The position numbers and the translations under genes were made by a program. 35,444 bases of DNA from an uncultured bacterium (lineage in GTDB: Bacteria > Atribacterota > Atribacteria > Atribacterales > Caldatribacteriaceae). Positions 3,784 to 25,633 of the stretch are shown here, in pieces; positions within the stretch are counted from its first letter, which is position 1, and every line of letters begins with the position of its first letter. The notes under the pieces were generated by a model. The model made no database searches, had not been told where the DNA came from, and was given only the letters and a program-made list of their open reading frames with translations. The stretch is taken from contig CAKZPS010000065.1 of the NCBI GenBank assembly GCA_937139415.1, positions 1 to 35,444 on the forward strand, written 5' to 3'.

Positions 3784-4318
3784 GTCTTCCCCCTTCGAGG
3801 TTTCTCTCTCCTCTCTCGTCGATCATTTTTTGGTAAATGCATACATCAACCCATCTATCGAATTTGTACCCTACTTCTCTCATGATTCCGCATAATCGGA
3901 ACCCTAACTTTTCGTGTAATTTGATGCTCGGAAGGTTCTCTCGGGCAATGAAAGCGAGCACCGAATGGTAGCCGATGCGTTTCGCTTCCTCTAAGAGATA
4001 ACTCAAGAGTTCATATCCGATGCGTTGACGGCGAAACTCTTCTCGAACGTAGACGGAGTCGGAAACCGTATACTGGTATCCTTCCCGTTCGGAATAGGGA
4101 CTCAAACAAGCCCAGGCAATCACCATGCCGCCTTCTTCGGCGACCAAAAGGGGATATTTCTCGCTATGTTCTTCATACCATTGTTTCTGCTCTTCTAAGG
4201 AACGAGGGTAGAGGTGAAAGGTGGCTATGGTATAGAGAACCGCCTCGTTGTAAATAGCGGTAATTTGGGGAAGATCTCTTTCTTGAGCTCGACGGATCAC
4301 TAAAACCTTTTCTTTCAT
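3776..4318 (-). CDS. GNAT family N-acetyltransferase (phosphinothricin acetyltransferase-like)
   Basis: This 180-residue protein has a full GNAT fold. The N-terminal part VIRRAQERDLPQITAIYNEAV is typical of the Pat/YncA group. The acetyl-CoA-binding motif A (RRQRIGYELLSYLLEEA) lies at about residues 96-112, and the C-terminal ENLPSIKLHEKLGFRLCG follows. It probably acetylates an amino group of a small molecule; the substrate is unknown. The ATG at 4318 is preceded by AGGAAC at close spacing. The reading frame continues further upstream, but that region overlaps the divergent lipoprotein gene and has no family similarity. It is the first gene of the GNAT-rad52-amaP operon. Confidence 0.85.
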   Translation of the reverse strand: MKEKVLVIRRAQERDLPQITAIYNEAVLYTIATFHLYPRSLEEQKQWYEEHSEKYPLLVAEEGGMVIAWACLSPYSEREGYQYTVSDSVYVREEFRRQRIGYELLSYLLEEAKRIGYHSVLAFIARENLPSIKLHEKLGFRLCGIMREVGYKFDRWVDVCIYQKMIDERGERNLEGGRHA

Positions 4319-4392
4319 AGCGTTCCTATTGTATATCTTTTTCTTCCGATAGAAAAGAGAGAGAAATAATCCTCTTCCTACCATATTTTGTG

Positions 4393-4398
4393 TATAAT
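4393..4398 (+). promoter_or_regulatory. Putative -10 box for the lipoprotein gene
   Basis: A perfect TATAAT lies 33 nt upstream of the ATG at 4432 in the divergent intergenic region. A strong AAAGGAGGGG ribosome site lies between. No recognisable -35 element is seen. Confidence 0.5.
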
Positions 4399-4431
4399 GG
4401 AAGAAAGTTCTTAGAAAAGGAGGGGAAAAGA

Positions 4432-5007
4432 ATGGTAAGGAAGATGGTGTGGATCGCAGTGTTATGCGTGTTTTTGGGGGCGTGTTCAAGTACTCTTTTG
4501 GCCCAAGGAGAAGTGGACCTTTTGCAAAAAGCAGTCGCTCTCTTAGAGCAGGGACAGGGAGAAGATGCCCAGAAACTCCTTGAGGAAGTACGATTACTCT
4601 TGTGGAACCAGTTACCCTTACGGGTGGAAAATGTCACCCTGATTGAGGAATCGGCGGGAGGATTTGGATACTTTCGCCCGCGGAATTCTCGTCTCTACGC
4701 TCAAGGTGAGGAAATACTTGCCTACGCCGAACCCAAGAATTACACCATTTTGGTTGAAGATGGTGCCTATCACATCTTTTTGGTCTTGGATGCCCAATTG
4801 TATGGTCAGGAAAGAAATCTTCTTTTTGAACAGAAAGAATTTCTCTCTTTTCGCTATATTACCTTAACCCCGGTCTTTGAGGTTTTTTTCAATCTCTCTT
4901 TCCATCTCGATGAGGTTCCTCCGGGAGAGTATGTTTTGGTGGTCGTGGTGAATGATCGGTTGGGAGGGAAGAACACTACCTTTGAAATTCCCATCATGTT
5001 GAGGTGA
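4432..5007 (+). CDS. Putative lipoprotein of unknown function
   Basis: This 191-residue exported protein has basic start MVRK, a hydrophobic core, and a lipobox LGAC with Cys at residue 18, so lipidation is likely. An alternative signal-peptidase I site (LLAQG) follows a few residues later. A short helical stretch (about residues 30-50, LLQKAVALLEQGQGEDAQKLLEEV) resembles a single TPR-like hairpin. The C-terminal two thirds looks like a beta-sandwich. I do not recognise a family. The start at 4432 is set by the AAAGGAGGGG ribosome site. It is the only gene between its promoter and the peptide operon 41 nt downstream, so read-through into that operon is possible. Confidence 0.65.
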   Translation: MVRKMVWIAVLCVFLGACSSTLLAQGEVDLLQKAVALLEQGQGEDAQKLLEEVRLLLWNQLPLRVENVTLIEESAGGFGYFRPRNSRLYAQGEEILAYAEPKNYTILVEDGAYHIFLVLDAQLYGQERNLLFEQKEFLSFRYITLTPVFEVFFNLSFHLDEVPPGEYVLVVVVNDRLGGKNTTFEIPIMLR

Positions 5008-15287: not shown

Positions 15288-16622
15288 CTATTTTTCTATT
15301 TTGGTTGCCCTTCCAATTATGGTAACGACACCGACAAAGAGGGGGAGAAAAGCGACCAGGTAAAGGTAAGGAGCGTTTTCTTTCTTCAGCATGCGTACGG
15401 TGCGTTCGCTCTTTTCCTCCGGTTGTCCACTACCGCTTGAGACCAACGAAATTTGGTAATCGGTTTTGGGGAGATGAGGGGGGAGACTCACTTTATAGCT
15501 TTCAAAAGTAGGCTGATACCCCTTCTTTTTGAGCTCCTCATCGTACTGGATGATTTCGTATCCTAATTCCGGTCCGGGAATTTGCTTGACGAAATAGGGG
15601 GTTCTCTCCACGGTTTGGAGAATTTCTTTCCCCCTCCCGAAGAGGAGGGTAACGTTCTCTATGGGGTCAATATGGACCCATTTGAATCGCTCCAGGCGGC
15701 CAATCTCTTGGGGATCAACCAGTTTGTTGTAGTAGAGCTCGTTGTATTCTTCCTGTTTATAAGGGTTGAAGTAGAGGTCGTTTTTCCCCACCGCGTGGAT
15801 GATCCAAGACGGGTCGTCACAATTTTCTTTTTTCGTCCAGCGGTTACCGGGGATAATTTCATAACCTACACCACCCTTGCGGCGGGAAGTAAAAACGAAG
15901 AGTTTCTTTTCGCTCCCTTCGAAAATAGTCCCGTCGTCCCGACGCAAGCGAATTTCGTATTTCCCGGGAGGGAGGTTGAGGATAAACCCAGAAGCAGGTT
16001 CAGAGGTGTAAAAGTCGACAAAATCGGGGGCCTTGGGTTCTTTGGGAATGGGAATATTGAGCGGTCCTTCTTCGCCGGCTTCGCGACGTCTCCGTACCTC
16101 TTCAAAGAATCGGTTGAGTACTTCCCGGTATCGTTCCATGGCTTGGTAGTACTCACGGAGCTTTTGATTGAAGACGTCTACTGCCTGTTTGTACTTCTTA
16201 TAGTAATTCTCTGCCTCTTCGTCTAAGTACATGACCGCTTTCTCCGACCAATACCCCTTGGGATAGTAGAGAACGTATTTTTGTTCGGGTTGGGTGGCGA
16301 TAACTTTTCCGTTGTGCACAATCTCCAGTTTGCCGTTGATTCTCTCGTTGAGCGTACTGAAACCGGCCATATAGCGGCGGGTTATCGGCCAATAGTAGAC
16401 GATCGTTTTTACCGGGGTAACCACACTATTCTCATGGGCGATGAGGTAAATCGTGTCTTCGCTTTGGGGACAGAAATTCTTACTGAAGGAGGACCCGTTG
16501 AAAGAAGTGAGAGAATACACGAGTTGCTCTTTGAAAGGAGATTCTGGTTGGGCGATGGCCAACGATCCGCCAAGGGTGAGCATACCGACTAACAGTAATA
16601 CTCCGTACCGATACCACTTCAT
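15288..16622 (-). CDS. Large exported protein of the ABC-2 unit, C-terminal membrane anchor, unknown function
   Basis: This 444-residue protein has a signal peptide (MKWYRYGVLLLVGMLTLGGSLAIAQ), an extracytoplasmic region, and a C-terminal hydrophobic segment (about 420-437) followed by RATKIEK, predicting a tail anchored in the membrane. A central charged helical part (about 145-195, ENYYKKYKQAVDVFNQKLREYYQAMERYREVL) looks like a coiled coil. A Pro-Gly-Lys-Tyr beta region (LPPGKYEIRLRRDDG) resembles the PGKYxLxA motif of the other extracytoplasmic protein in this operon. I do not recognise a family. It overlaps the permease gene by 4 nt, so it is probably a dedicated partner of that transporter. 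Confidence 0.65.
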   Translation of the reverse strand: MKWYRYGVLLLVGMLTLGGSLAIAQPESPFKEQLVYSLTSFNGSSFSKNFCPQSEDTIYLIAHENSVVTPVKTIVYYWPITRRYMAGFSTLNERINGKLEIVHNGKVIATQPEQKYVLYYPKGYWSEKAVMYLDEEAENYYKKYKQAVDVFNQKLREYYQAMERYREVLNRFFEEVRRRREAGEEGPLNIPIPKEPKAPDFVDFYTSEPASGFILNLPPGKYEIRLRRDDGTIFEGSEKKLFVFTSRRKGGVGYEIIPGNRWTKKENCDDPSWIIHAVGKNDLYFNPYKQEEYNELYYNKLVDPQEIGRLERFKWVHIDPIENVTLLFGRGKEILQTVERTPYFVKQIPGPELGYEIIQYDEELKKKGYQPTFESYKVSLPPHLPKTDYQISLVSSGSGQPEEKSERTVRMLKKENAPYLYLVAFLPLFVGVVTIIGRATKIEK

Positions 16623-17440
16623 GCTTTGACCCCCCTCTTCCCCATGGTGTAAATGGAGAGAAAAACGAATACGAGCGAGTAAATCACGCAGTAGAGCACG
16701 TGGGTAACGTAGAGCGTCCGATTTTCGAGGATGACGCTATCTAACCCTCTACTCAGGTAGGCAAAAGGAGAAATCCAATTAATTCCTCGGAAGAGGTAAG
16801 AGGTGGTTTGGCGCAGGTAGAGGAGTGACGGGGAGAGCGACTCTTTTTCGATCCCGAGGAGCATATTGTAAACGAACTGAATGGCGAGAAAGGCACCCAA
16901 AATGGCCATGAGGGTGATGATGGAGCTCCGCATTCTCCCGGTGAGTGAGGAGATAAAGAGTCCGAAACTCACCACACAGGAGATGAGGAAAATACCCATA
17001 ATGAGTGCTTTTGCGAGCCCGATGGTAAAACCGAGGTTGGTGAGAACGCTTGCCACATAGAAGTAGAGAGCGGTGAAAGCCAGGGCCAGGATTCCCAAGG
17101 TGAGATCTTTGAGGTATCTACTCCACAGAAAACTCGCCGGTGTTACCGGTCCGTAGAAGAGCACCTCTAAGGTTCCCTGCTCGCGCTCCCGGGAAATGGA
17201 GATCGCCGACATGATCACGAGATAGAGAGAGATGACGATGAGGGTAATGTAGAGGGGATAGTTCAACGGAAAGGCAGAGACTAAAATATCTTCCTCGCGG
17301 ATGGCATCCAGGAAATTTTTGAGGAGGAAAGAAGAAGCAAGGAAAGAGGCGAAAATCGCTCCGTAATACCCCCAACTATACAGAGCGTAAAGTAAATCCC
17401 GTTTCAAGAGAGTCTTCATCACTTTGCCGTTTTTCATCAT
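16619..17440 (-). CDS. ABC-2 type transporter permease
   Basis: This 273-residue permease has six membrane spans. The ABC-2 pattern includes a large first extracytoplasmic loop (FLLKNFLDAIREEDILVSAFPLN) and the conserved ISISREREQGTLEVLFYGPVTPASFLWSRYLKD segment, which is the coupling region before the third span. These permeases move polysaccharides, lipids, drugs or proteins outward, or act mechanically in gliding (GldF-like). The nearest matches in layout are GldF/NosY-type proteins. It has 4-nt overlaps on both sides, making it the third gene of a four-gene unit with the ATPase at 18146-19102. Confidence 0.85.
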   Translation of the reverse strand: MMKNGKVMKTLLKRDLLYALYSWGYYGAIFASFLASSFLLKNFLDAIREEDILVSAFPLNYPLYITLIVISLYLVIMSAISISREREQGTLEVLFYGPVTPASFLWSRYLKDLTLGILALAFTALYFYVASVLTNLGFTIGLAKALIMGIFLISCVVSFGLFISSLTGRMRSSIITLMAILGAFLAIQFVYNMLLGIEKESLSPSLLYLRQTTSYLFRGINWISPFAYLSRGLDSVILENRTLYVTHVLYCVIYSLVFVFLSIYTMGKRGVKA

Positions 17441-18159
17441 TGTGCGCCTTCCTCCTTTAACTTGAGTTCCACATCCTCAATGGTATCCTCAAAATCACCC
17501 TGAGGGGTGTGCAGGAGGAGCTCCAAGAGGCCATACTGTTCTTTCTCCTCTACTTGGATTTTACTCCAGGGAATGAGACCTTTATTACGGGCGAGATAAG
17601 CCTTGGGATCCCAGAAGAGCTCGATGGGACCGGAAAAGATGGGCCTCCCACGAGAGAAATTGTCTGCGTCTCCTTCTCGAACGTAGAGTTTCCCCTCTAA
17701 TTGGAGAGGTAAGCCGGGAAAATCAGAAATACCTACTCCTTGGGCATCTTTGAACCGGATTTCGATTTCAATCCCCCGGTTGGTGGGATCGGTAAAACAA
17801 ATGATGCCAGCTAAGCCCGGTATTTCTTTTCCTTCCATAGTGAAGTCGAAAACATTCTCGCCTCGCTTGATTTCTAACTCTTGCGTGACGGGGTGGTAAT
17901 GAGGAGCTTCGGCGGTGAGGGTATATTTCCCTGGGGGGAGATGGGTGATTCTATACTCTTTGCTTTGGAAGAGAATGTCCGAGCGCCCCCCAATGTTTAA
18001 GGTTAATTTTCGGACCACGTCTTGCGAGTAGAGATCGGTGACCTTTCCTTTGAGAATTCCGTAAGGTACTCGAGTGGTGAAATAAGAAACCACTAAGAGG
18101 AAGATGATAACGATACCGAGAAGTGAAGCGACAAGGATTGCCATTCTATTTCTTTTCAT
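17437..18159 (-). CDS. Membrane-anchored extracytoplasmic protein with carboxypeptidase-regulatory-like domain
   Basis: This 240-residue protein has one N-terminal membrane segment (about residues 6-28) and an external part. From about residue 33 to 105 it shows a CarboxypepD_reg/PEGA-like beta-sandwich: GILKGKVTDLYSQDVVRKLTLNIGG, then the classic ITHLPPGKYTLTAEAPHYHPVTQELEIKRGEN. The remainder (about 115-240) is beta-rich and unrecognised. ATG 18159 is chosen because it gives a normal signal-anchor (MKRNRMAILVASLLG) and has a purine-rich GGGGGGAAG upstream. It overlaps the ATPase gene by 14 nt and the permease by 4 nt. It may act as an extracytoplasmic adaptor for the transporter. Confidence 0.7.
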   Translation of the reverse strand: MKRNRMAILVASLLGIVIIFLLVVSYFTTRVPYGILKGKVTDLYSQDVVRKLTLNIGGRSDILFQSKEYRITHLPPGKYTLTAEAPHYHPVTQELEIKRGENVFDFTMEGKEIPGLAGIICFTDPTNRGIEIEIRFKDAQGVGISDFPGLPLQLEGKLYVREGDADNFSRGRPIFSGPIELFWDPKAYLARNKGLIPWSKIQVEEKEQYGLLELLLHTPQGDFEDTIEDVELKLKEEGAQ

Positions 18160-19102
18160 GAGTGTCTTCCCCCCGTGTGAGAAGTGAAACATTTTGCTGG
18201 GTAATGGTAATAAAAGCCTCCTCTAAGCTCATTTCTTTCGTTTTCATGGCCAAGATCAAAAAACCTTTCTCATAGAAGAAACGGGAGATTTCGCCTCGGT
18301 GGTCACGGTCGGTTTCGAGTTCTACTTCGATCCGGTGTCCTTCGGCGTGCCAATTTTTGACGAAGGGAAATTGGGTCAGTTCCTTCCCGACCTCGCTGAT
18401 CTCCCGGTTCAATTCGATCTCTAAGAGGATGGTATCGGTGAGTTTCCGTTTGATATTTTCCATGGTATCTTCTGCTAAGAGTTTTCCGCGATTGATGATG
18501 GCCACCTTTTTGCACAGTCGCTCTACCTCGGAGAGGAGGTGAGAGGAAACGAAAACGGTTCGGCCTAAACGGTTTTCCTCTTCAATGAGGTCACGAATTT
18601 GTTTGATGCTCGTAGGGTCTAAATTGGCCACTGGTTCGTCGAGGATCAGGAGTTCTGGGTCATGCAAGAGAGCTCGGGCAAAAGCGAGTTTCTGCTGCAT
18701 CCCTTTGGAATAGGCACCCAGCTTCTTATTCCGATCGTTGGAGAGGCCTACTGCCTCAAGGAGGCTATCAATGCGCTTTTGCGAGTTCGGAACTTGGTAG
18801 AGTTCGGCGAAAAAGATCAAGTATTCTTGAGCGGTCATTTCTTTGTAAAAGTATTGGTTTTCTGCTACCACGCCGATTCTCCTTTTCACCGCTACATTCC
18901 GAGGATGAAAAGGTTCACCCAAGAGGTAAATCTCTCCCTTAGTTGGAGGGATGAGACCGAGGAGCATCATAATCGTGGTGCTCTTCCCCGCTCCGTTGGG
19001 ACCAAGAAACCCGTAAATATCACCCTTTTCTACCCGGAGATCGAGGTTATCTACTGCCTTAAAACCGTTGAATTCTTTGGTGAGCCCGATGGTCTGAATC
19101 AT
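18146..19102 (-). CDS. ABC-2 type transporter ATP-binding protein
   Basis: This 318-residue ATPase has Walker A GPNGAGKS (34-41), Q-loop VVAENQYFYKEMTA, signature YSKGMQQ, Walker B LLILDEPVANLD and switch His in VSSHLLSEVE. A C-terminal extension (about 225-318) is typical of the CcmA/GldA/NosF class. It energises the permease encoded two genes downstream. It is the first gene of the minus-strand unit. The upstream region contains AT-rich stretches (TATAAA, TACTAT on the minus strand), but no convincing -35/-10 pair. Confidence 0.9.
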   Translation of the reverse strand: MIQTIGLTKEFNGFKAVDNLDLRVEKGDIYGFLGPNGAGKSTTIMMLLGLIPPTKGEIYLLGEPFHPRNVAVKRRIGVVAENQYFYKEMTAQEYLIFFAELYQVPNSQKRIDSLLEAVGLSNDRNKKLGAYSKGMQQKLAFARALLHDPELLILDEPVANLDPTSIKQIRDLIEEENRLGRTVFVSSHLLSEVERLCKKVAIINRGKLLAEDTMENIKRKLTDTILLEIELNREISEVGKELTQFPFVKNWHAEGHRIEVELETDRDHRGEISRFFYEKGFLILAMKTKEMSLEEAFITITQQNVSLLTRGEDTHEKK

Positions 19103-19236: not shown

Positions 19237-19265
19237 TTGACAGTTAGTAGTGAAAAAAATAGAAT
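19237..19265 (+). promoter_or_regulatory. Near-consensus sigma70-type promoter of the CUT2 sugar operon
   Basis: TTGACA (19237-19242), a 17-nt spacer, then TAGAAT (19260-19265). This is the best -35/-10 pair in the window. The start codon is at 19297 with AAGGAGGTG between. An imperfect inverted pair, AGGAGG near 19203 and CTCCTC near 19229, lies just upstream. Confidence 0.85.
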
Positions 19266-19296
19266 AGAAAGGGGATATTTTAAGGAGGTGGATGGA

Positions 19297-20313
19297 ATGA
19301 AGTGGTTTTGGTTTCTTCTCGTTGTGGTGCTCGGTGTCGTGAGCCTCGTGGGTGTTTCCTTCGCTCAAGAGAAATACGAGATCGCCGTAGTGGTAAAGAT
19401 TGCAGGGATTCCTTGGTTTAACCGTATGGCAGAAGGAGTCGATCAAGCGGCGAAGGAATTGGGTGTCAATGCTTACCTCATCGGTCCTTCCACCGCCGAT
19501 CCTGCACCTCAGGTGCAGATGGTGGAAGATTTGGTTACGCGCGGGGTAGATGCGATTTGTGTAGTACCGAACGATGCGAAGGCTTTAGTTCCCGTGTTTA
19601 CCAGGGCTCGTGAGAAGGGAATTGTCGTTCTCACTCATGAATCTCCTTTCGAAACCGAGGCTATCGATTGGGACGTAGAAACCATCGACAGCGTTCAGTA
19701 CGGTAAAAACCCTGTTGACGCCATCGTGCGAGAGCTGGAAGAGAGTGGAGAAATCAGTAAGTATAGCCCTGAGAACCCTGCCGGTTTTGTCATGTTGGTG
19801 GGTAGTCTCACCGTGCCTCTCCACAACTTCTGGGCAGATGTGGCCTTAGAGTACGCGAAAGAGAAGTATCCTTTCCTAAAAGAGTTGACTTCTCGTCTTC
19901 CCACCGCAGAGAGTGTTGAGGCCTCGCGGGCGGCAGTATTGGACCTCATGACTACTTACGGTGAGCAGTTCAAGGCAGTGATCGGATGGGGGAGTCTGGG
20001 ACCGATCGGTGCGGCACAGGCGGTAGCAGAAAAGGGTATGGAAAATAAGGTCATCGTGGTTGGAAGTGCCATTCCTTCTACGGTGGCGCCGTATCTTGCT
20101 ACCGGGGCAGTCGACTGGGCGCAACTTTGGGATCCCAAAGATGCTGGCTACGCTATGGTGTATATTGCCAAACAAATTTTGGATGGGAAAGAAATTAAAC
20201 CGGGCTTGGAGATTCCAAGTCTTGGAACTATTGACGTTCAGGATAAGGTTATTATCGTCAACCAGACCAAGATCATGGGGAACGCCGAAGCTGCAGAAAA
20301 GCTCGGATTCTAA
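19297..20313 (+). CDS. CUT2 sugar ABC transporter substrate-binding protein (RhaS/LsrB-like)
   Basis: This 338-residue protein has a signal peptide (MKWFWFLLVVVLGVVSLVGVSFAQ) and a peripla_BP_4 fold. The KIAGIPWFNRMAEGVDQAAKELGV opening is typical of the autoinducer-2/rhamnose-binding group (LsrB, RhaS), followed by VEDLVTRGVDAICVVPNDAKALVPV. The start is fixed by AAGGAGGTG (19282-19290), 6 nt away. Downstream genes supply a two-domain ATPase and two separate permeases, the same subunit layout as Lsr or Rha systems. The substrate cannot be assigned further. A strong hairpin follows the gene. Confidence 0.9.
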   Translation: MKWFWFLLVVVLGVVSLVGVSFAQEKYEIAVVVKIAGIPWFNRMAEGVDQAAKELGVNAYLIGPSTADPAPQVQMVEDLVTRGVDAICVVPNDAKALVPVFTRAREKGIVVLTHESPFETEAIDWDVETIDSVQYGKNPVDAIVRELEESGEISKYSPENPAGFVMLVGSLTVPLHNFWADVALEYAKEKYPFLKELTSRLPTAESVEASRAAVLDLMTTYGEQFKAVIGWGSLGPIGAAQAVAEKGMENKVIVVGSAIPSTVAPYLATGAVDWAQLWDPKDAGYAMVYIAKQILDGKEIKPGLEIPSLGTIDVQDKVIIVNQTKIMGNAEAAEKLGF

Positions 20314-20327
20314 AAGCTTCTCATTCT

Positions 20328-20365
20328 ATGCTCTTGGGGGAAGGTCTTCCCCCAAGAGCATTTTT
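20328..20365 (+). terminator. Terminator/attenuator between binding protein and ATPase genes
   Basis: A perfect 15-bp stem (ATGCTCTTGGGGGAA 20328-20342 with its complement 20347-20361) has a GGTC loop and T5 at 20361-20365. It lies 14 nt after the binding-protein stop and 11 nt before the ATPase start, so it should give partial read-through. Confidence 0.9.
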
Positions 20366-20376
20366 GAGGCATTCCC

Positions 20377-21894
20377 ATGGAATCCGCTGTGAACCAACCT
20401 GTTTCGGAAAAGGAACCCTTTTTACTCTTGCGACAGGTGAGTAAACGCTTCGGAGGGGTGCGAGCCTTAGACAAGGTTGATTTTGAAATTATCCGGGGCG
20501 AAGTCCATTGTCTCGTGGGAGAAAATGGTTCGGGGAAGAGTACCCTGGTCAAAATCGTGACCGGGGTGGTCGCTCCGGAGGGAGGAGCAGAGATGGTTAT
20601 CGATGGGAAACCGTATTCCTCTCTCCGTCCTTTCGAAGCCTATCGTTTGGGTATCCACGTGGTCCATCAAGACCTCTCTCTGTTCCCCAATCTTTCGGTG
20701 GCCGAGAACATTGCTTCACACTTCTACCTTGAGCCTCGCTCTTTCGTGGATTGGAAGAAGATCCGCAAGCGGGGAATGGAAGTGATGGAGAAATTGGGAA
20801 TTACCCTCCATCCGGATACGGAAGTGCGCAAACTCTCGGTTGCCGATCAGCAGCTCGTGGCGATATGTCGAGCCATCGCCAGTGATGCCCGGCTCATCAT
20901 TCTGGATGAACCGACTTCTTCCCTCACCTGGAAAGAGGTGAATCGTCTCTTTGCCTTCCTCCGAGAACTCAAAAGCAAGGGGATTGCCGTTCTCTTCATC
21001 AGTCATCGTCTCGATGAAGTTCTGGAGATTGGAGACCGGGTGACGGTTATCCGTGACGGGAAAAAGGTGGGAACTTTTGTGGCGCAAGGATTGACCCGTG
21101 ACGAGCTCTCCTTTCTCATGACCGGGAAAAAGCTTGCCTTTACGCGGGAGGTTATGCTTCAAGAGAATCGACCAGAAATCCTCCGGGTGGAGCGTTTGAG
21201 TCGTACCAACCAGTACCATGAAGTTTCCTTTACCCTTCGGAGGGGGGAAGTGTTGGGTCTCATCGGTCCGCGGGGTTCGGGACGGACGGAAATTGCTCTC
21301 TCCCTTTTCGGTTTGAACCCTCCGGATGAGGGGGCGATTTTTGTGGACGGAAAGAGATTCCGTGCCCGTTCGGTGCAGGAAGCCATCCAATACGGGATCG
21401 GATACGTTCCCGAGAATCGCTTGTTGCAGGGCTTGGTTTTGGATCAGAGCGTGGAGAACAATTTGGTCATTACCGTTTTTGAGCAACTGAAGAGACGAGG
21501 ACTTTTCGTTCCTCCTCGGGAAAAGCACGCCTTTGCCGAAGAAACGGTGCTGGCCTTCGGAATTAAAGTGGCCGATATCGAAGCGCCGGTACGCTCTCTT
21601 TCTGGAGGCAACCAGCAAAAAGTGGTCCTCGCCAAGTGGATTCTCACCGAACCCAAGATTCTCATCCTCGATACTCCCACCCATGGAGTGGATGTAGGGG
21701 CTAAAGAGAGTATTTATCAGTCGATTATAGAGCTCGTCGGGAAGGACTTGAGCATCATTCTCATTTCCGATGAGGAACAAGAAGTGAGGTTAGTGTGTGA
21801 CCGAATTTTGGTCATGAAGGGTGGGAAGATTGTGAAAGAGTTTTCCCCTGGTACGATGACTGAAGACGATTTACGTCAGAGCATTCGAGAGTGA
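20377..21894 (+). CDS. CUT2 sugar ABC transporter ATPase, two-domain (RbsA/LsrA-like)
   Basis: This 505-residue protein has two nucleotide-binding domains. Domain 1: Walker A GENGSGKS (48-55), signature LSVADQQLV, Walker B LIILDEPTSSL, switch His in FISHRLDEV. Domain 2: degenerate Walker A GPRGSGRT, signature LSGGNQQKVVLAKWI, and Walker B ILILDTPTHGVDVG, where the catalytic Glu is replaced by Thr. Domain 2 lacks the P-loop Lys, as is usual in this family, so only domain 1 is expected to hydrolyse ATP efficiently. It follows the attenuator hairpin and precedes the first permease by 13 nt. Confidence 0.95.
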   Translation: MESAVNQPVSEKEPFLLLRQVSKRFGGVRALDKVDFEIIRGEVHCLVGENGSGKSTLVKIVTGVVAPEGGAEMVIDGKPYSSLRPFEAYRLGIHVVHQDLSLFPNLSVAENIASHFYLEPRSFVDWKKIRKRGMEVMEKLGITLHPDTEVRKLSVADQQLVAICRAIASDARLIILDEPTSSLTWKEVNRLFAFLRELKSKGIAVLFISHRLDEVLEIGDRVTVIRDGKKVGTFVAQGLTRDELSFLMTGKKLAFTREVMLQENRPEILRVERLSRTNQYHEVSFTLRRGEVLGLIGPRGSGRTEIALSLFGLNPPDEGAIFVDGKRFRARSVQEAIQYGIGYVPENRLLQGLVLDQSVENNLVITVFEQLKRRGLFVPPREKHAFAEETVLAFGIKVADIEAPVRSLSGGNQQKVVLAKWILTEPKILILDTPTHGVDVGAKESIYQSIIELVGKDLSIILISDEEQEVRLVCDRILVMKGGKIVKEFSPGTMTEDDLRQSIRE

Positions 21895-21907
21895 AAGAAG
21901 AAGGCTT

Positions 21908-22927
21908 ATGAAGATACCTTGGAAGATCCAAAGACAAACGGAATGGTACCTCCTCTTTGTGATTATCGTTCTCTCTGCCTTTCTCACCGTGGTGAATCCT
22001 AAATTTTTCACTCTGGAGAATATTTTCGATTTTCTGCGGAATAACTCCTTCTTGGGAATCGTGGCTTTAGGGGAACTCGTGGTCTTGATTTCCGGTGGTA
22101 TCGATGTATCCTTCACCGCCATTGCTACTGTTGCCCAATACCTTATGGGTCTCGTAATCAGTACTACCATGGTCAATAATGTGCTCCTTGCTTTCCTCAT
22201 CCCCATCCCCATCGGTATTGCCTTGGGAGCAGTGAACGGGGTTTTAGTGTACTATACCCGAGTCCATCCGGTGATTATCACCATTTCTACCTTGAATTTT
22301 TACTATGGGGTCTTAATGTTCCTGACTAAGGGAACGTGGATTTATAAATTTCCTCCCGCTTTCCGGGAATTCGCCAAGCTCAAGGTTGTTACCTTCATGG
22401 GAGCACAGGGAGTTCCCTTTGGCTTTTCTTTTTTCACCCTTCTCTGGATTATTTTGGGTTTCTTCACTTTCGTCGTTCTCCGCTATCTGACCATAGGGAG
22501 GAAAATCTATGCGGTGGGGGGAAACCTCGAAGCAGCCCGCAGGGCCGGTTTCAACATCTTTCGGGTCCAACTTTTCGTGTATTCCTATATTGGACTTCTT
22601 GCCGGAATTGCTGGCTTCGTCCATGCCCAGCTCAATCAGATGATTCAGCCTAATGCCATTGTGGGGAGGGAACTCGACGTTATTGCCGCTACCATTCTCG
22701 GTGGGGCGAGTATCTTCGGTGGTTCCGGAACGGTGTGGGGGGCATTTCTTGGCGTACTCCTCATCGCCATTATCAAGAATGGTCTCATTCTCATGAAGGC
22801 TTCCGCATACTGGCATGAAGTCATTATGGGGTCGATCATCGTTCTTGCGGCAAGTATCAGTGCTTACCAGCGGAAATTGCAGATAAGGAGGGAGAAAGGG
22901 CGCTTTGCTGAAGAACAAATCTTTTAG
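21908..22927 (+). CDS. CUT2 sugar ABC transporter permease 1 (RbsC/LsrC-like)
   Basis: This 339-residue protein has eight to ten membrane spans with BPD_transp_2 signatures: ELVVLISGGIDVSFTAIA, LGAVNGVLVYYTRVHPVIITISTLNFYYG and the C-terminal GRELDVIAATILGGASIFGGSGTVWGAFLGVLL. The ATG at 21908 follows AAGAAGAAGG. Its 3' end overlaps the second permease by 23 nt. Together with that permease it forms a heterodimeric channel, as in Lsr and Rha systems. Confidence 0.92.
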   Translation: MKIPWKIQRQTEWYLLFVIIVLSAFLTVVNPKFFTLENIFDFLRNNSFLGIVALGELVVLISGGIDVSFTAIATVAQYLMGLVISTTMVNNVLLAFLIPIPIGIALGAVNGVLVYYTRVHPVIITISTLNFYYGVLMFLTKGTWIYKFPPAFREFAKLKVVTFMGAQGVPFGFSFFTLLWIILGFFTFVVLRYLTIGRKIYAVGGNLEAARRAGFNIFRVQLFVYSYIGLLAGIAGFVHAQLNQMIQPNAIVGRELDVIAATILGGASIFGGSGTVWGAFLGVLLIAIIKNGLILMKASAYWHEVIMGSIIVLAASISAYQRKLQIRREKGRFAEEQIF

Positions 22928-23858
22928 AGTAAGAGATATGCAAATTGTGGCTTTGATGGTTCTTTTGGGTGTCCTTTTCGCTTTGATGGCTTTTCTCACC
23001 CAGGGGAAACTCTTAGAAGCGCAGAGTTTTCAAGCCATTGCTTTTCAAATGCCTCTTTTAGGGCTTTTAACCTTGGCACAAATGGGACCCATGTTATCGG
23101 GAGGCATTGATCTCTCCATCATTGCTACCGCCAATTTGGTGAGTATCGTCATGGCTCTGAGCATGACCCAGTTTTTCCCCGCTTTACAGGCTCCCTTTGC
23201 CATTCTCCTGGGCTTGGGGTTGTCGCTCCTTTTGGGAATACTCAAGGGCTTTTTCATTGCTCTCGTTTCGGTGCCGGCCATCATTGCCACTTTGGGTCTC
23301 ATGATTTTCATCCGGGGGTTGGCTTTGGTGATCACCCGAGGGTACGTCATCGCCGGTTTCCCCCCGGATTTCCTCTTCATCGGTAATGGAACGGTGGTGG
23401 GCATTCCCGTTCCCTTTCTCGTTTTCGCTATTTTTGCCTCGCTCATGTACCTTCTCCTCTCTCGGACCCAATTCGGTTTAGAACTCTACCTTTTCGGATC
23501 AAATCCGGTAGCCACCCTCTTTTCGGGGGTCAATAACCGTAAGGTGGTCTTCCGTACCTATCTTTTGTCGAGCTTCCTTGCCGGGATAGCCTCGTGCGTT
23601 ATGGCTTCACGTTTCAATGCTGCACAAGCCGATTACGGAGAGTCCTACCTCCTTTTGACTGTTCTCGCTTGTGTGTTAGGAGGGGTCAGCCCTTCCGGTG
23701 GTTCAGGGAGAGTGTGGGGTATTGTGGTTTCGGTCGTGGTTTTACAAGTTGTGGCTACCGGCTTTAATTTGCTCGGCTTTAGTTCCCATCTTGCGAGTGC
23801 CTTGTGGGGCATGATTCTCTTAGGAGTAGTGCTCTTTAACCGCTTATTCTTGGCCTGA
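22905..23858 (+). CDS. CUT2 sugar ABC transporter permease 2 (RbsC/LsrD-like)
   Basis: This 317-residue paralogue of the preceding permease has GPMLSGGIDLSIIATANLVSIVMAL, FIALVSVPAIIATLGLMIFIRGLALVITRGYVI and GGVSPSGGSGRVWGIVVSVVVLQV. The start could be TTG 22905 (behind AAAGGG) or ATG 22938; the longer form is listed. The final span ends near the C-terminus (MILLGVVLFNRLFLA). It closes the operon. After the stop there is only a weak hairpin with T6 at 23909-23914. Confidence 0.9.
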   Translation: MLKNKSFRVRDMQIVALMVLLGVLFALMAFLTQGKLLEAQSFQAIAFQMPLLGLLTLAQMGPMLSGGIDLSIIATANLVSIVMALSMTQFFPALQAPFAILLGLGLSLLLGILKGFFIALVSVPAIIATLGLMIFIRGLALVITRGYVIAGFPPDFLFIGNGTVVGIPVPFLVFAIFASLMYLLLSRTQFGLELYLFGSNPVATLFSGVNNRKVVFRTYLLSSFLAGIASCVMASRFNAAQADYGESYLLLTVLACVLGGVSPSGGSGRVWGIVVSVVVLQVVATGFNLLGFSSHLASALWGMILLGVVLFNRLFLA

Positions 23859-24024
23859 TTTTTGCGGTTTCGAGGTGATTGCCAAAATCGAAGGGACTCC
23901 CTGGGAACTTTTTTGCATTTTGCCGGTATAGACATGGTAAGAAATTTTATCATGGAAGGTGAGAGGGGCAAAAAAGTTGGAGGAGAGGTCTTGATTTTTG
24001 TTTCCTTTCTGAATATTATCTTAT

Positions 24025-24112
24025 GAAGTTTGGAGTCACCCGGGGGCTGACCGAGTGCTGCATCGACCCCCCCCGGGCTCCCCCTCCTTAAGGTCACCGG
24101 TGGGAGAACTTC
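24025..24112 (-). ncRNA. Candidate structured RNA, three-way junction, unassigned
   Basis: Three helices fit with almost no unpaired junction bases. P1 is GAAGTT 24025-24030 with AACTTC 24107-24112. P2 is CCCGGGGG 24039-24046 with CCCCCGGG 24070-24077. P3 is CTCCC 24078-24082 with GGGAG 24102-24106. P2 and P3 abut directly, as do P3 and P1; the only linker is the 8-nt stretch 24031-24038. An extra AT-rich 9-bp stem (24114-24122 with 24135-24143) lies beside it. The GC-rich block stands out from AT-rich surroundings. Strand is inferred from the promoter at 24130-24159. It does not match any riboswitch, tRNA or SRP RNA consensus I know. It could also be a repeat element. Confidence 0.4.
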
Positions 24113-24129
24113 AAAAATTTCTCCTTTCT

Positions 24130-24159
24130 ATTATAGAAATTTTGGGCAATAATCTACAA
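24130..24159 (-). promoter_or_regulatory. Putative minus-strand promoter of the structured RNA
   Basis: On the minus strand, TTGTAG (24159-24154), an 18-nt spacer and a perfect TATAAT (24135-24130). Transcription would begin at about 24123, eleven bases before helix P1 of the RNA candidate. The -10 overlaps one arm of the AT-rich stem. Confidence 0.4.
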
Positions 24160-24208
24160 GCACTGTCCATGTTTTTTTCACGATTTTTTTCTTCGCTTAG
24201 AGGAATTT

Positions 24209-25633
24209 TTACCCTTCCTCACCTGAGGTACTTTCTCTCTCCATTTCCTGGAAGTACTCTTCTAATTGCGAGCTCTCTTTTTCCTCCAGAAGAGGGAGAG
24301 GCAGAGAGAGTAAACATTCCTTTTCTTCTTTGACCTGTGACACAATACCTTGGTTCCCTTCTCGAAAGGGACCACGAAAACTCACTTGGGGAAGCCATAG
24401 TTCCTCGCGGAAGAGCCGTGCAGTCTCTTCTAAACCGAAAAAGGTGCCTTGAGCTATTCCTTCGCAGATGGACGTTTCGCTCGCCGTTTCTAAGTGAAAA
24501 TTGATACCCCTCACGATTCTCTTGCAAAAGGAAATGAGTTCGTGGTCGAGGAGGAGTTGTTCTAAACTCCCTCCTTGATCACATCCCACAATTCCCATAT
24601 GCCCAAAGGTGGTGGCGCCTGCAAGCATTCCCAGGATTAAGGTGATGCCCTTTTCCCAACCGTTTTGGGTATCGAAGGAGAGGCTATCGGTGAGCCCTAC
24701 GTTGATGTAGCTGGGGAACCCGTAGAAGGAGGTTCCCATTTCGGCCATCACTACGCCGAGAAGGGCTTGCTCTGGAGAGCCGAAAGAGATACTACCGGTG
24801 CGTGGATCGGTAACGTGGGGGATACCCCCGTAACAGATGGGAGTTCCGGGACGAAGGAGCTGGGTGACCACGATTCCTGCCAGGATTTCAGCATTTTCCT
24901 GGGCTAAAGTTCCCGCGAGGGCTATCGGAGCACTCATTCCACTCTGGGCCATAGGCCCGATCATCACCGGTAAACCTAAGGAAGTGGCTTCCTTGAGAAT
25001 CTCGAGGCCTTTTTTGGGAAAACGCAAAGGACTGATCGGTTCCAGGAAAGCAAAGAGCCGAGGTTTCTCTCGGGCCTCTTTTTCCCCTGAGGCAAGGAGG
25101 ACACTCATTTCAAAAACCGCTTGAAAGGATCGACGCTCGGAAAACCAGAGGAAAATGGGCTTAGTGGTCCGAGAGAAGAGTTCTTTGGCCATGTACGCTT
25201 CCCGTTGGGAGGGAGGGATGTCAAGAGGCATAGCCAATCCTCCCACGAGATCGATGTGAGGAAGATGGTGGGCGACGTGAATTGCCTGGAGGAAATCTTG
25301 ACTCCTTGCTTCCCGCCGTCTCCCGTTTTCAAACCGGGCAAACTGTCCTGGTGAGGAGCAGAAAATGGTGTTTCCCGTGGCGAAATGAATCCCTTCTTTT
25401 CCCTCTCGTCCGTAAAGGGTGAAGGATTTACCCGCCTTCTCTAAGCTCTCCTCTACTAACTCAGGGGACAAGAGGAGGCGTTCTCCTTTGGGTTGGGCTC
25501 CGTGATCGCCGAGGAGGGAAAATACCTCTTCGTCGGGAATGGAAACCCCGATATGGGCGAGGAGGTCCAAGCTCTTTTCGTGGAGTCGTTTCCGCTCGTC
25601 TTGAGAAAGGAGAGTGAGGGCGATGTGACTCAT
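24209..25633 (-). CDS. MttB family (trimethylamine methyltransferase-like) protein, non-pyrrolysine
   Basis: This 474-residue protein of the MttB/COG5598 superfamily has N-terminal LHEKSLDLLAHIGVSIPDEEVFSLLGDHGA and SPELVEESLEKAGKSFTLYGREGKEG. The TIM-barrel core includes RPGTPICYGGIPHVTDPRTGSISFGSPEQALLGVVMAEM and MLAGATTFGHMGIVGCDQGGSLEQLLLDHE. Family members transfer a methyl group from quaternary or tertiary amines to a corrinoid protein. No in-frame stop codon interrupts the frame, so this is a non-pyrrolysine member like the glycine- or proline-betaine enzymes. No corrinoid protein or reductive activator is nearby. ATG 25633 overlaps the upstream dehydrogenase stop by 4 nt, so both are co-translated. 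The tail (about 420-474) is acidic. Confidence 0.88.
   Translation of the reverse strand: MSHIALTLLSQDERKRLHEKSLDLLAHIGVSIPDEEVFSLLGDHGAQPKGERLLLSPELVEESLEKAGKSFTLYGREGKEGIHFATGNTIFCSSPGQFARFENGRRREARSQDFLQAIHVAHHLPHIDLVGGLAMPLDIPPSQREAYMAKELFSRTTKPIFLWFSERRSFQAVFEMSVLLASGEKEAREKPRLFAFLEPISPLRFPKKGLEILKEATSLGLPVMIGPMAQSGMSAPIALAGTLAQENAEILAGIVVTQLLRPGTPICYGGIPHVTDPRTGSISFGSPEQALLGVVMAEMGTSFYGFPSYINVGLTDSLSFDTQNGWEKGITLILGMLAGATTFGHMGIVGCDQGGSLEQLLLDHELISFCKRIVRGINFHLETASETSICEGIAQGTFFGLEETARLFREELWLPQVSFRGPFREGNQGIVSQVKEEKECLLSLPLPLLEEKESSQLEEYFQEMERESTSGEEG

Follow-up and report, generated by a model that had tools for sequence, protein, structure and literature searches.

In excludon-type transcription, two transcripts running towards each other overlap, with possible mutual regulation (PMC7154746), and in the face-to-face promoter switches prgX/prgQ and scbA/scbR, convergent promoters lie close together and give rise to complementary RNAs (PMC3134472, PMC4519249). 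Comparative genomics has, furthermore, yielded structured leaders and riboswitch candidates (PMC6429828, PMC11109978). We analysed a 35,444-nt stretch of DNA from an uncultured bacterium of the Atribacterota (contig CAKZPS010000065.1; hereafter, the window), in which a short intergenic unit shares features with each of these systems. As in the excludon, two predicted transcripts face each other and overlap, and in genera g5 and g7 the likeness extends to the genes, as mutM and an ABC-2 exporter operon diverge there with overlapping leaders; unlike in the excludon, the predicted transcripts of the window lead to no sense gene, and their overlap is short, conserved and structured instead of being a long UTR across a gene. 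With prgX/prgQ and scbA/scbR the unit has closely spaced convergent promoters and complementary predicted RNAs in common, whereas here conservation is confined to the non-coding overlap and includes neither a regulator gene nor a coding frame. Like the leader and riboswitch candidates, it contains a covarying hairpin with conserved flanks, and in g3, g5 and g7 a transporter operon follows it; in contrast to them, it has one supported helix, no ligand pocket that could be drawn, and two genera that carry it without the operon. A literature search on non-coding RNA in Atribacterota returned nothing on point.

Conservation of antisense promoters from one species to the next is generally held to be poor. 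For that reason, a pair of facing promoters that five genera have retained, in two of which the operon has moved away, makes a good natural test of selection on cis-antisense transcription. The gene order adds a before-and-after pair, with the exporter operon attached in g3, g5 and g7 and detached in g1 (the genus of the window) and g2.

Extent and distribution of the conserved unit

The GC-rich block between convergent genes from which the preliminary description set out was confirmed at 24024-24112, in the AT-rich gap between a sugar ABC permease gene and an MttB-type methyltransferase gene (Table 1). Conservation among all homologues extends beyond this block, beginning with the bases CTTGT and ending with AAAAATCAAG, which are, respectively, the -35 box of a minus-strand promoter and the complement of the -35 box of a plus-strand promoter. 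We found the unit in 11 Atribacterota genomes belonging to five genera (g1, g2, g3, g5 and g7) and three families, as a single copy in every carrier (11/11); two of the 11 homologue sequences are identical. The element is thus single-copy and lineage-restricted, and the suggestion that it might be a structured repeat found no support. A dispersed repeat or mobile element was likewise rejected, as no repeats and no further copies in the element's own genome were found.

Plain BLAST with the block returned two genomes of the sister genus g2 and no homologue past that genus. Upon searching the phylum's 50 genomes with a sequence profile built from the window and the two sister-genus copies (R1), we obtained ten genomes, each with a single strong copy; an 11th, in G012 (g5), was spotted by reading upstream of the ABC-2 operon and confirmed with a CM built from genus g3 alone (R2). 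This g3-only model retrieved the window copy (24091-23989) at an E-value of 3.6e-11 and the G012 copy at 1.7e-6, values that are rough, as are all E-values from the two models. Run over 386 genomes, many of them outside the phylum, R2 gave ten matches, all in Atribacterota and all at known loci, with G012 the sole known copy missed under the stricter filters of that search; further copies at E<=0.01 were not found in these genomes. An exact-pattern search of named genomes hit one contig only, from Candidatus Atribacteria bacterium isolate Ch31, and the unit was not matched in plasmids or, by pattern search, in viral contigs.

Between g1 and g2, coding DNA is identical at ~72% of nucleotides, and the gap holding the unit aligns at 61-65% overall, its core of 120-200 bp reaching 70-73%, whereas intergenic DNA elsewhere in the synteny block aligns at only 51-58%. 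The proposed check against Rfam 15 gave no family at the gathering threshold for the window or for six homologous loci, and a permissive E-value added none; the top sub-threshold match, BTnc231, scored 20.6 bits against a cut-off of 80.4 and adjoins the block instead of lying on it. A tRNA/tmRNA scan found none. A comparison of G001, G004 and the window showed frameshifts or stops in the short reading frames of either strand, and a small protein gene was rejected on these grounds. Judged from this comparison, the locus is a conserved, previously undescribed putative non-coding RNA locus of Atribacterota.

Predicted facing promoters and transcripts

The minus-strand promoter proposed beforehand, a TATAAT with a TTGTAG 18 nt upstream, proved exact and is kept in 11/11 homologues; tabulating all copies gave TTGT(A/C)(G/C/T), a spacer of 16 or 18 and TATAAT, and only two TTG...TATAAT pairs of such kind occur in the whole window. 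While this promoter was borne out, a second one had been missed on the plus strand (TTGATT-17-TATTAT, 23991-24019), in which the distance from TTGATT to TATNNT is 17 in all 11 copies, though the intervening sequence varies. The hexamers and the spacing of both promoters are kept in 11/11, and the two point at each other across the GC-rich block. From the predicted starts, the transcripts would overlap by 80-111 nt across the 11 copies, an overlap that corresponds to the GC-rich block, so that, at the level of sequence, a convergent sense-antisense promoter pair with overlapping predicted transcripts is found at this locus. In g3, a creatininase-like gene contains the minus-strand promoter and the plus-strand T-run in its 3' end, and their conservation there is therefore partly coding; the -35/-10 elements lie within the last codons of that gene at L043 6568-6860 and L044 7414-7700.

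Table 1. Coordinates of the conserved unit, its predicted elements and the surrounding genes in the window
Feature	Position	Strand	Basis or remark
Conserved unit	23989..24160		Spans both -35 boxes inclusive; 11 homologues, conservation stops at the -35 boxes
-35 box TTGATT	23991..23996	+	Invariant 11/11; consensus scan
-10 box TATTAT	24014..24019	+	TATCAT in g2, g3; TATTTT in g5, g7; spacer 17 in all
Predicted structured minus-strand RNA	23989..24123	-	Start near 24123 inferred from -10 box; 3' limit is the end of the conserved part
P2 3' arm CCCCCGGGU	24038..24046	-	Pairing and changes on both sides
P2 apical extension, GGUCGA 24068-24063 with UCGGUC 24054-24049	24049..24068	-	MFE fold of window; register varies by genus
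P2 5' arm GCCCGGGGG	24070..24078	-	Pairing and changes on both sides
Purine tract AAGGAGGGGG, Shine-Dalgarno-like	24080..24089	-	Immediately 5' of P2; RRGGAGGGG in 11/11
-10 box TATAAT	24130..24135	-	Spacer 18 (16 or 18 in relatives); invariant 11/11
-35 box TTGTAG	24154..24159	-	TTGT invariant in 11/11 homologues
Predicted plus-strand (antisense) RNA, ~153 nt, T-run end	24026..24178	+	T-run after opposing -35 box 11/11
TTTTTTT, candidate end of plus-strand RNA	24172..24178	+	Sequence; 11-copy tabulation
Sugar ABC permease	22905-23858	+	Convergent flanking gene
MttB-type methyltransferase gene	24209-25633	-	Convergent flanking gene
Sugar ABC operon	19237..23858	+	Between RNA and ABC-2 operon in g1 and g2 only
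ABC-2 exporter operon	15288..19102	-	Orthologue directly after RNA in g3, g5, g7
ABC-2 operon, ATPase	18146-19102	-	
ABC-2 operon, CarboxypepD_reg-like	17437-18192	-	
ABC-2 operon, ABC-2 permease	16619-17440	-	
ABC-2 operon, unknown-family protein	15288-16622	-	

The three-way junction of the preliminary description turned out to be window-specific: it is possible to draw helices P1 (24025-24030 with 24107-24112), P2 (24039-24046 with 24070-24077) and P3, and a junction of this type appears in the minus-strand MFE fold of 24020-24123, but P1 is interrupted by mismatches in the remaining genera, and g2 and g7 lack the 5' arm of P3, the window carrying an insertion of ~13 nt in the P3 region relative to the sister genus. 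Nor is the stability of the fold unusual, with z-scores moderately below shuffles (-1.6 to -1.9 on the minus strand, -1.1 to -1.5 on the plus strand), and whole-fold energy alone would not point to more than chance. P2, by contrast, is conserved with covariation and longer than the 8 bp first ascribed to it, comprising 9 pairs plus an apical extension in the window and 12 pairs by the CM. In the CM-guided alignment of the homologues, which was fitted to P2 and so leans in its favour, 98.2% of P2 cells are paired and 4/12 pairs changed on both sides; upon moving the partner by 1-3 columns, pairing fell to 28-65% and all double changes were gone. The double changes (A-U to G-C, G-C to U-A, U-A to C-G and C-G to U-A) are plain in the sequences, the register being taken from the CM-based alignment, since MAFFT on all ten misaligned P2. 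A second hairpin with the loop AAGAUGAUA pairs in g2 and g3 in different registers and was not counted, which leaves P2, on this comparative evidence, as the only helix with support. A helix of an upstream CUCC with the GGAG of the purine tract can be drawn in several lineages with variable pairing probability, and the tract has no start codon at Shine-Dalgarno spacing. Conserved unpaired nucleotides flank P2.

Which strand is selected for structure can be read from the variable and wobble positions of P2: in 18 cells, a G.U pair of the minus strand would turn into an A.C mismatch on the plus strand, against 2 cells of the reverse kind. The folding of the core agrees, with z-scores of -3.0, -3.4 and -2.4 on the minus strand and -1.6, -1.9 and -0.6 on the plus strand. 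Because these two lines of evidence coincide, the predicted minus-strand RNA is, in our reading, the structured strand. The original proposal, in which a minus-strand promoter of its own serves a structured non-coding RNA, hence gains support from the promoter in 11/11, the covariation of P2, the wobble bias, the single copy per genome and the lack of an Rfam match, whereas we found no support for a ribozyme. No terminator of the minus-strand RNA was consistent across the homologues. In the plus direction, a T-run of at least 5 follows 1-13 nt past the opposing -35 box in 11/11 copies, where termination of the plus-strand RNA is likely; up to this T-run, the predicted plus-strand RNAs measure 124-154 nt over the 11 copies. 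The hairpin preceding the run varies: g5 and g7 have a good one, whereas it is poor in the others, among them g1, g3 and G004.

Gene order and possible function

In seven genomes of three families, the predicted minus-strand RNA lies directly upstream of, and co-directional with, the ABC-2 operon. In g3, G014 (g7) and G012 (g5), it stands ~110-200 nt ahead of the operon's start codon, and the genes that follow encode an ATPase, a CarboxypepD_reg-like protein, an ABC-2 permease and a 442-aa protein of unknown family; the contig of G016 ends too early to place the operon relative to the RNA. On the other side, G014 has a divergent mutM, the same mutM start lies upstream in G012 and the f3 genomes, and g3 has MttB and creatininase-like genes in place of mutM. 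Hence, the earlier view that a cis role is unlikely, as no gene lies downstream, is true for the window and false for g3, g5 and g7, where the RNA would form the leader of the ABC-2 operon. The sugar ABC operon separates the two in g1 and g2, genera in which the ABC-2 operon has its own promoter, read from the sequence as TTGACA-17-TACACT/TAAACT. Since the RNA precedes the ABC-2 operon in g3, g5 and g7 and the sugar operon is common to g1 and g2, we take the order of RNA then ABC-2 operon to be ancestral and to have been broken by the sugar operon in the common ancestor of g1 and g2. A look behind the sugar permease orthologues of g3 and g4 showed no unit, its link being to the ABC-2 operon instead. 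Genomes of family f3 and genus g4 do contain the ABC-2 operon, with no unit visible upstream.

We consider it about evenly probable (roughly 0.5) that the locus encodes a structured small RNA together with a cis-antisense partner, which ancestrally controlled the exporter leader and is free-standing in the window. This reading builds on the homology of the copies, both promoter sequences, P2, the strand bias and the gene order, all of which are established by sequence comparison. The minus-strand promoter would drive an RNA in whose core the purine-rich tract AAGGAGGGG precedes the GC-rich hairpin P2, and the plus-strand promoter a complementary RNA of ~150 nt that would end just past the minus-strand promoter. 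In the ancestor, the ABC-2 exporter operon would have had the minus-strand RNA as its 5' leader, and the plus-strand RNA would have been the cis-antisense partner of that leader, with both RNAs being made and leader synthesis presumably tuned by complementary pairing or by polymerase collision. In g1 and its sister genus, the inserted sugar-transporter operon would have severed this link, leaving a free-standing sense-antisense small-RNA pair that persists. Conservation although the old neighbour genes have departed suggests that the unit may work on its own; as a tentative extension, a self-contained sense-antisense RNA cassette might have been kept across families independently of its neighbours, with the pair itself, through the RNAs or promoter collision, as the function.

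The main rival is that the minus-strand RNA acts purely in cis, as an attenuator or riboswitch-like 5' leader of the ABC-2 operon that is stranded in the window, the split being recent or the RNA acting through something unseen. The co-directional position in the seven genomes fits such a leader, as do the conserved unpaired nucleotides around P2 and, in g3 and g7, terminator-like hairpins that separate the RNA from the ABC-2 ribosome-binding site. Yet the separating operon is shared by g1 and g2, which differ to the extent of ~72% coding identity, and a pure leader should have decayed by then, whereas the unit is conserved; the downstream part of the leader is, moreover, not clearly conserved in these genera. 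This continued conservation after the split leads us to regard a pure leader as rather unlikely, if somewhat less so than the remaining alternatives.

It is more doubtful still that the locus makes a free-standing small RNA from the minus strand only, with the plus-strand promoter a by-product of conserved RNA sequence (AAAAAUCAAG and AUGAUA). The wobble bias favours the minus strand, the AUGAUA segment can be placed in the loop of a hairpin in g2 and g3, and in g1 and g3 pairing of UUUUUG...CAAAAA could close the RNA. Likewise, AAAAAUCAAG, taken here as the plus-strand -35 box, could in part form the 3' strand of an AU-rich stem that closes the minus-strand RNA. Such a by-product would sit poorly with the constant TTGATT-TATNNT distance across a variable spacer and the plus-strand T-run in every copy; the loop hairpin, in turn, differs in register between g2 and g3 and is absent in g1, g5 and g7. 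The least probable of these explanations, to which we give little credence, is an element acting as DNA, either a protein-binding site or a bidirectional terminator between operons: P2 is also an inverted repeat in DNA, and in g2 the motif GGTCA-N9-TGACC is palindromic, but a DNA site would not be expected to show strand-asymmetric wobbles, the hairpin is not followed by a U-run and both promoters point into the element. The sense-antisense pair is, in comparison, the reading that we prefer.

Observations on neighbouring genes

The last protein of the ABC-2 operon in the window (15288-16622, minus strand; 443 aa, REQLVYSLTSFNGST...) had no Pfam or NCBIfam match, and its orthologues come after the ABC-2 permease in the related loci that were read. 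In G002 (g3), a terminator-like hairpin, AAUUCCUCUUGAGGAAUUUUU, lies ahead of the ABC-2 ribosome-binding site. The sugar ABC operon encodes a RhaS/LsrB-like binding protein, an ATPase and two permeases, and the g3 orthologue of the permease is located elsewhere. The MttB-type gene scored 265 bits, under the NCBIfam cut-off of 525 bits for pyrrolysine trimethylamine methyltransferase, and adjoins a GFO/IDH/MocA oxidoreductase gene; it probably encodes a non-pyrrolysine MttB-like enzyme. In g2 (L029 12989-13912 and L030 around 4126-4635), the unit stands beside a gene for a secreted-looking protein of 169-179 aa with a CPACPQE motif, which is followed by a small lipoprotein gene on the other strand.
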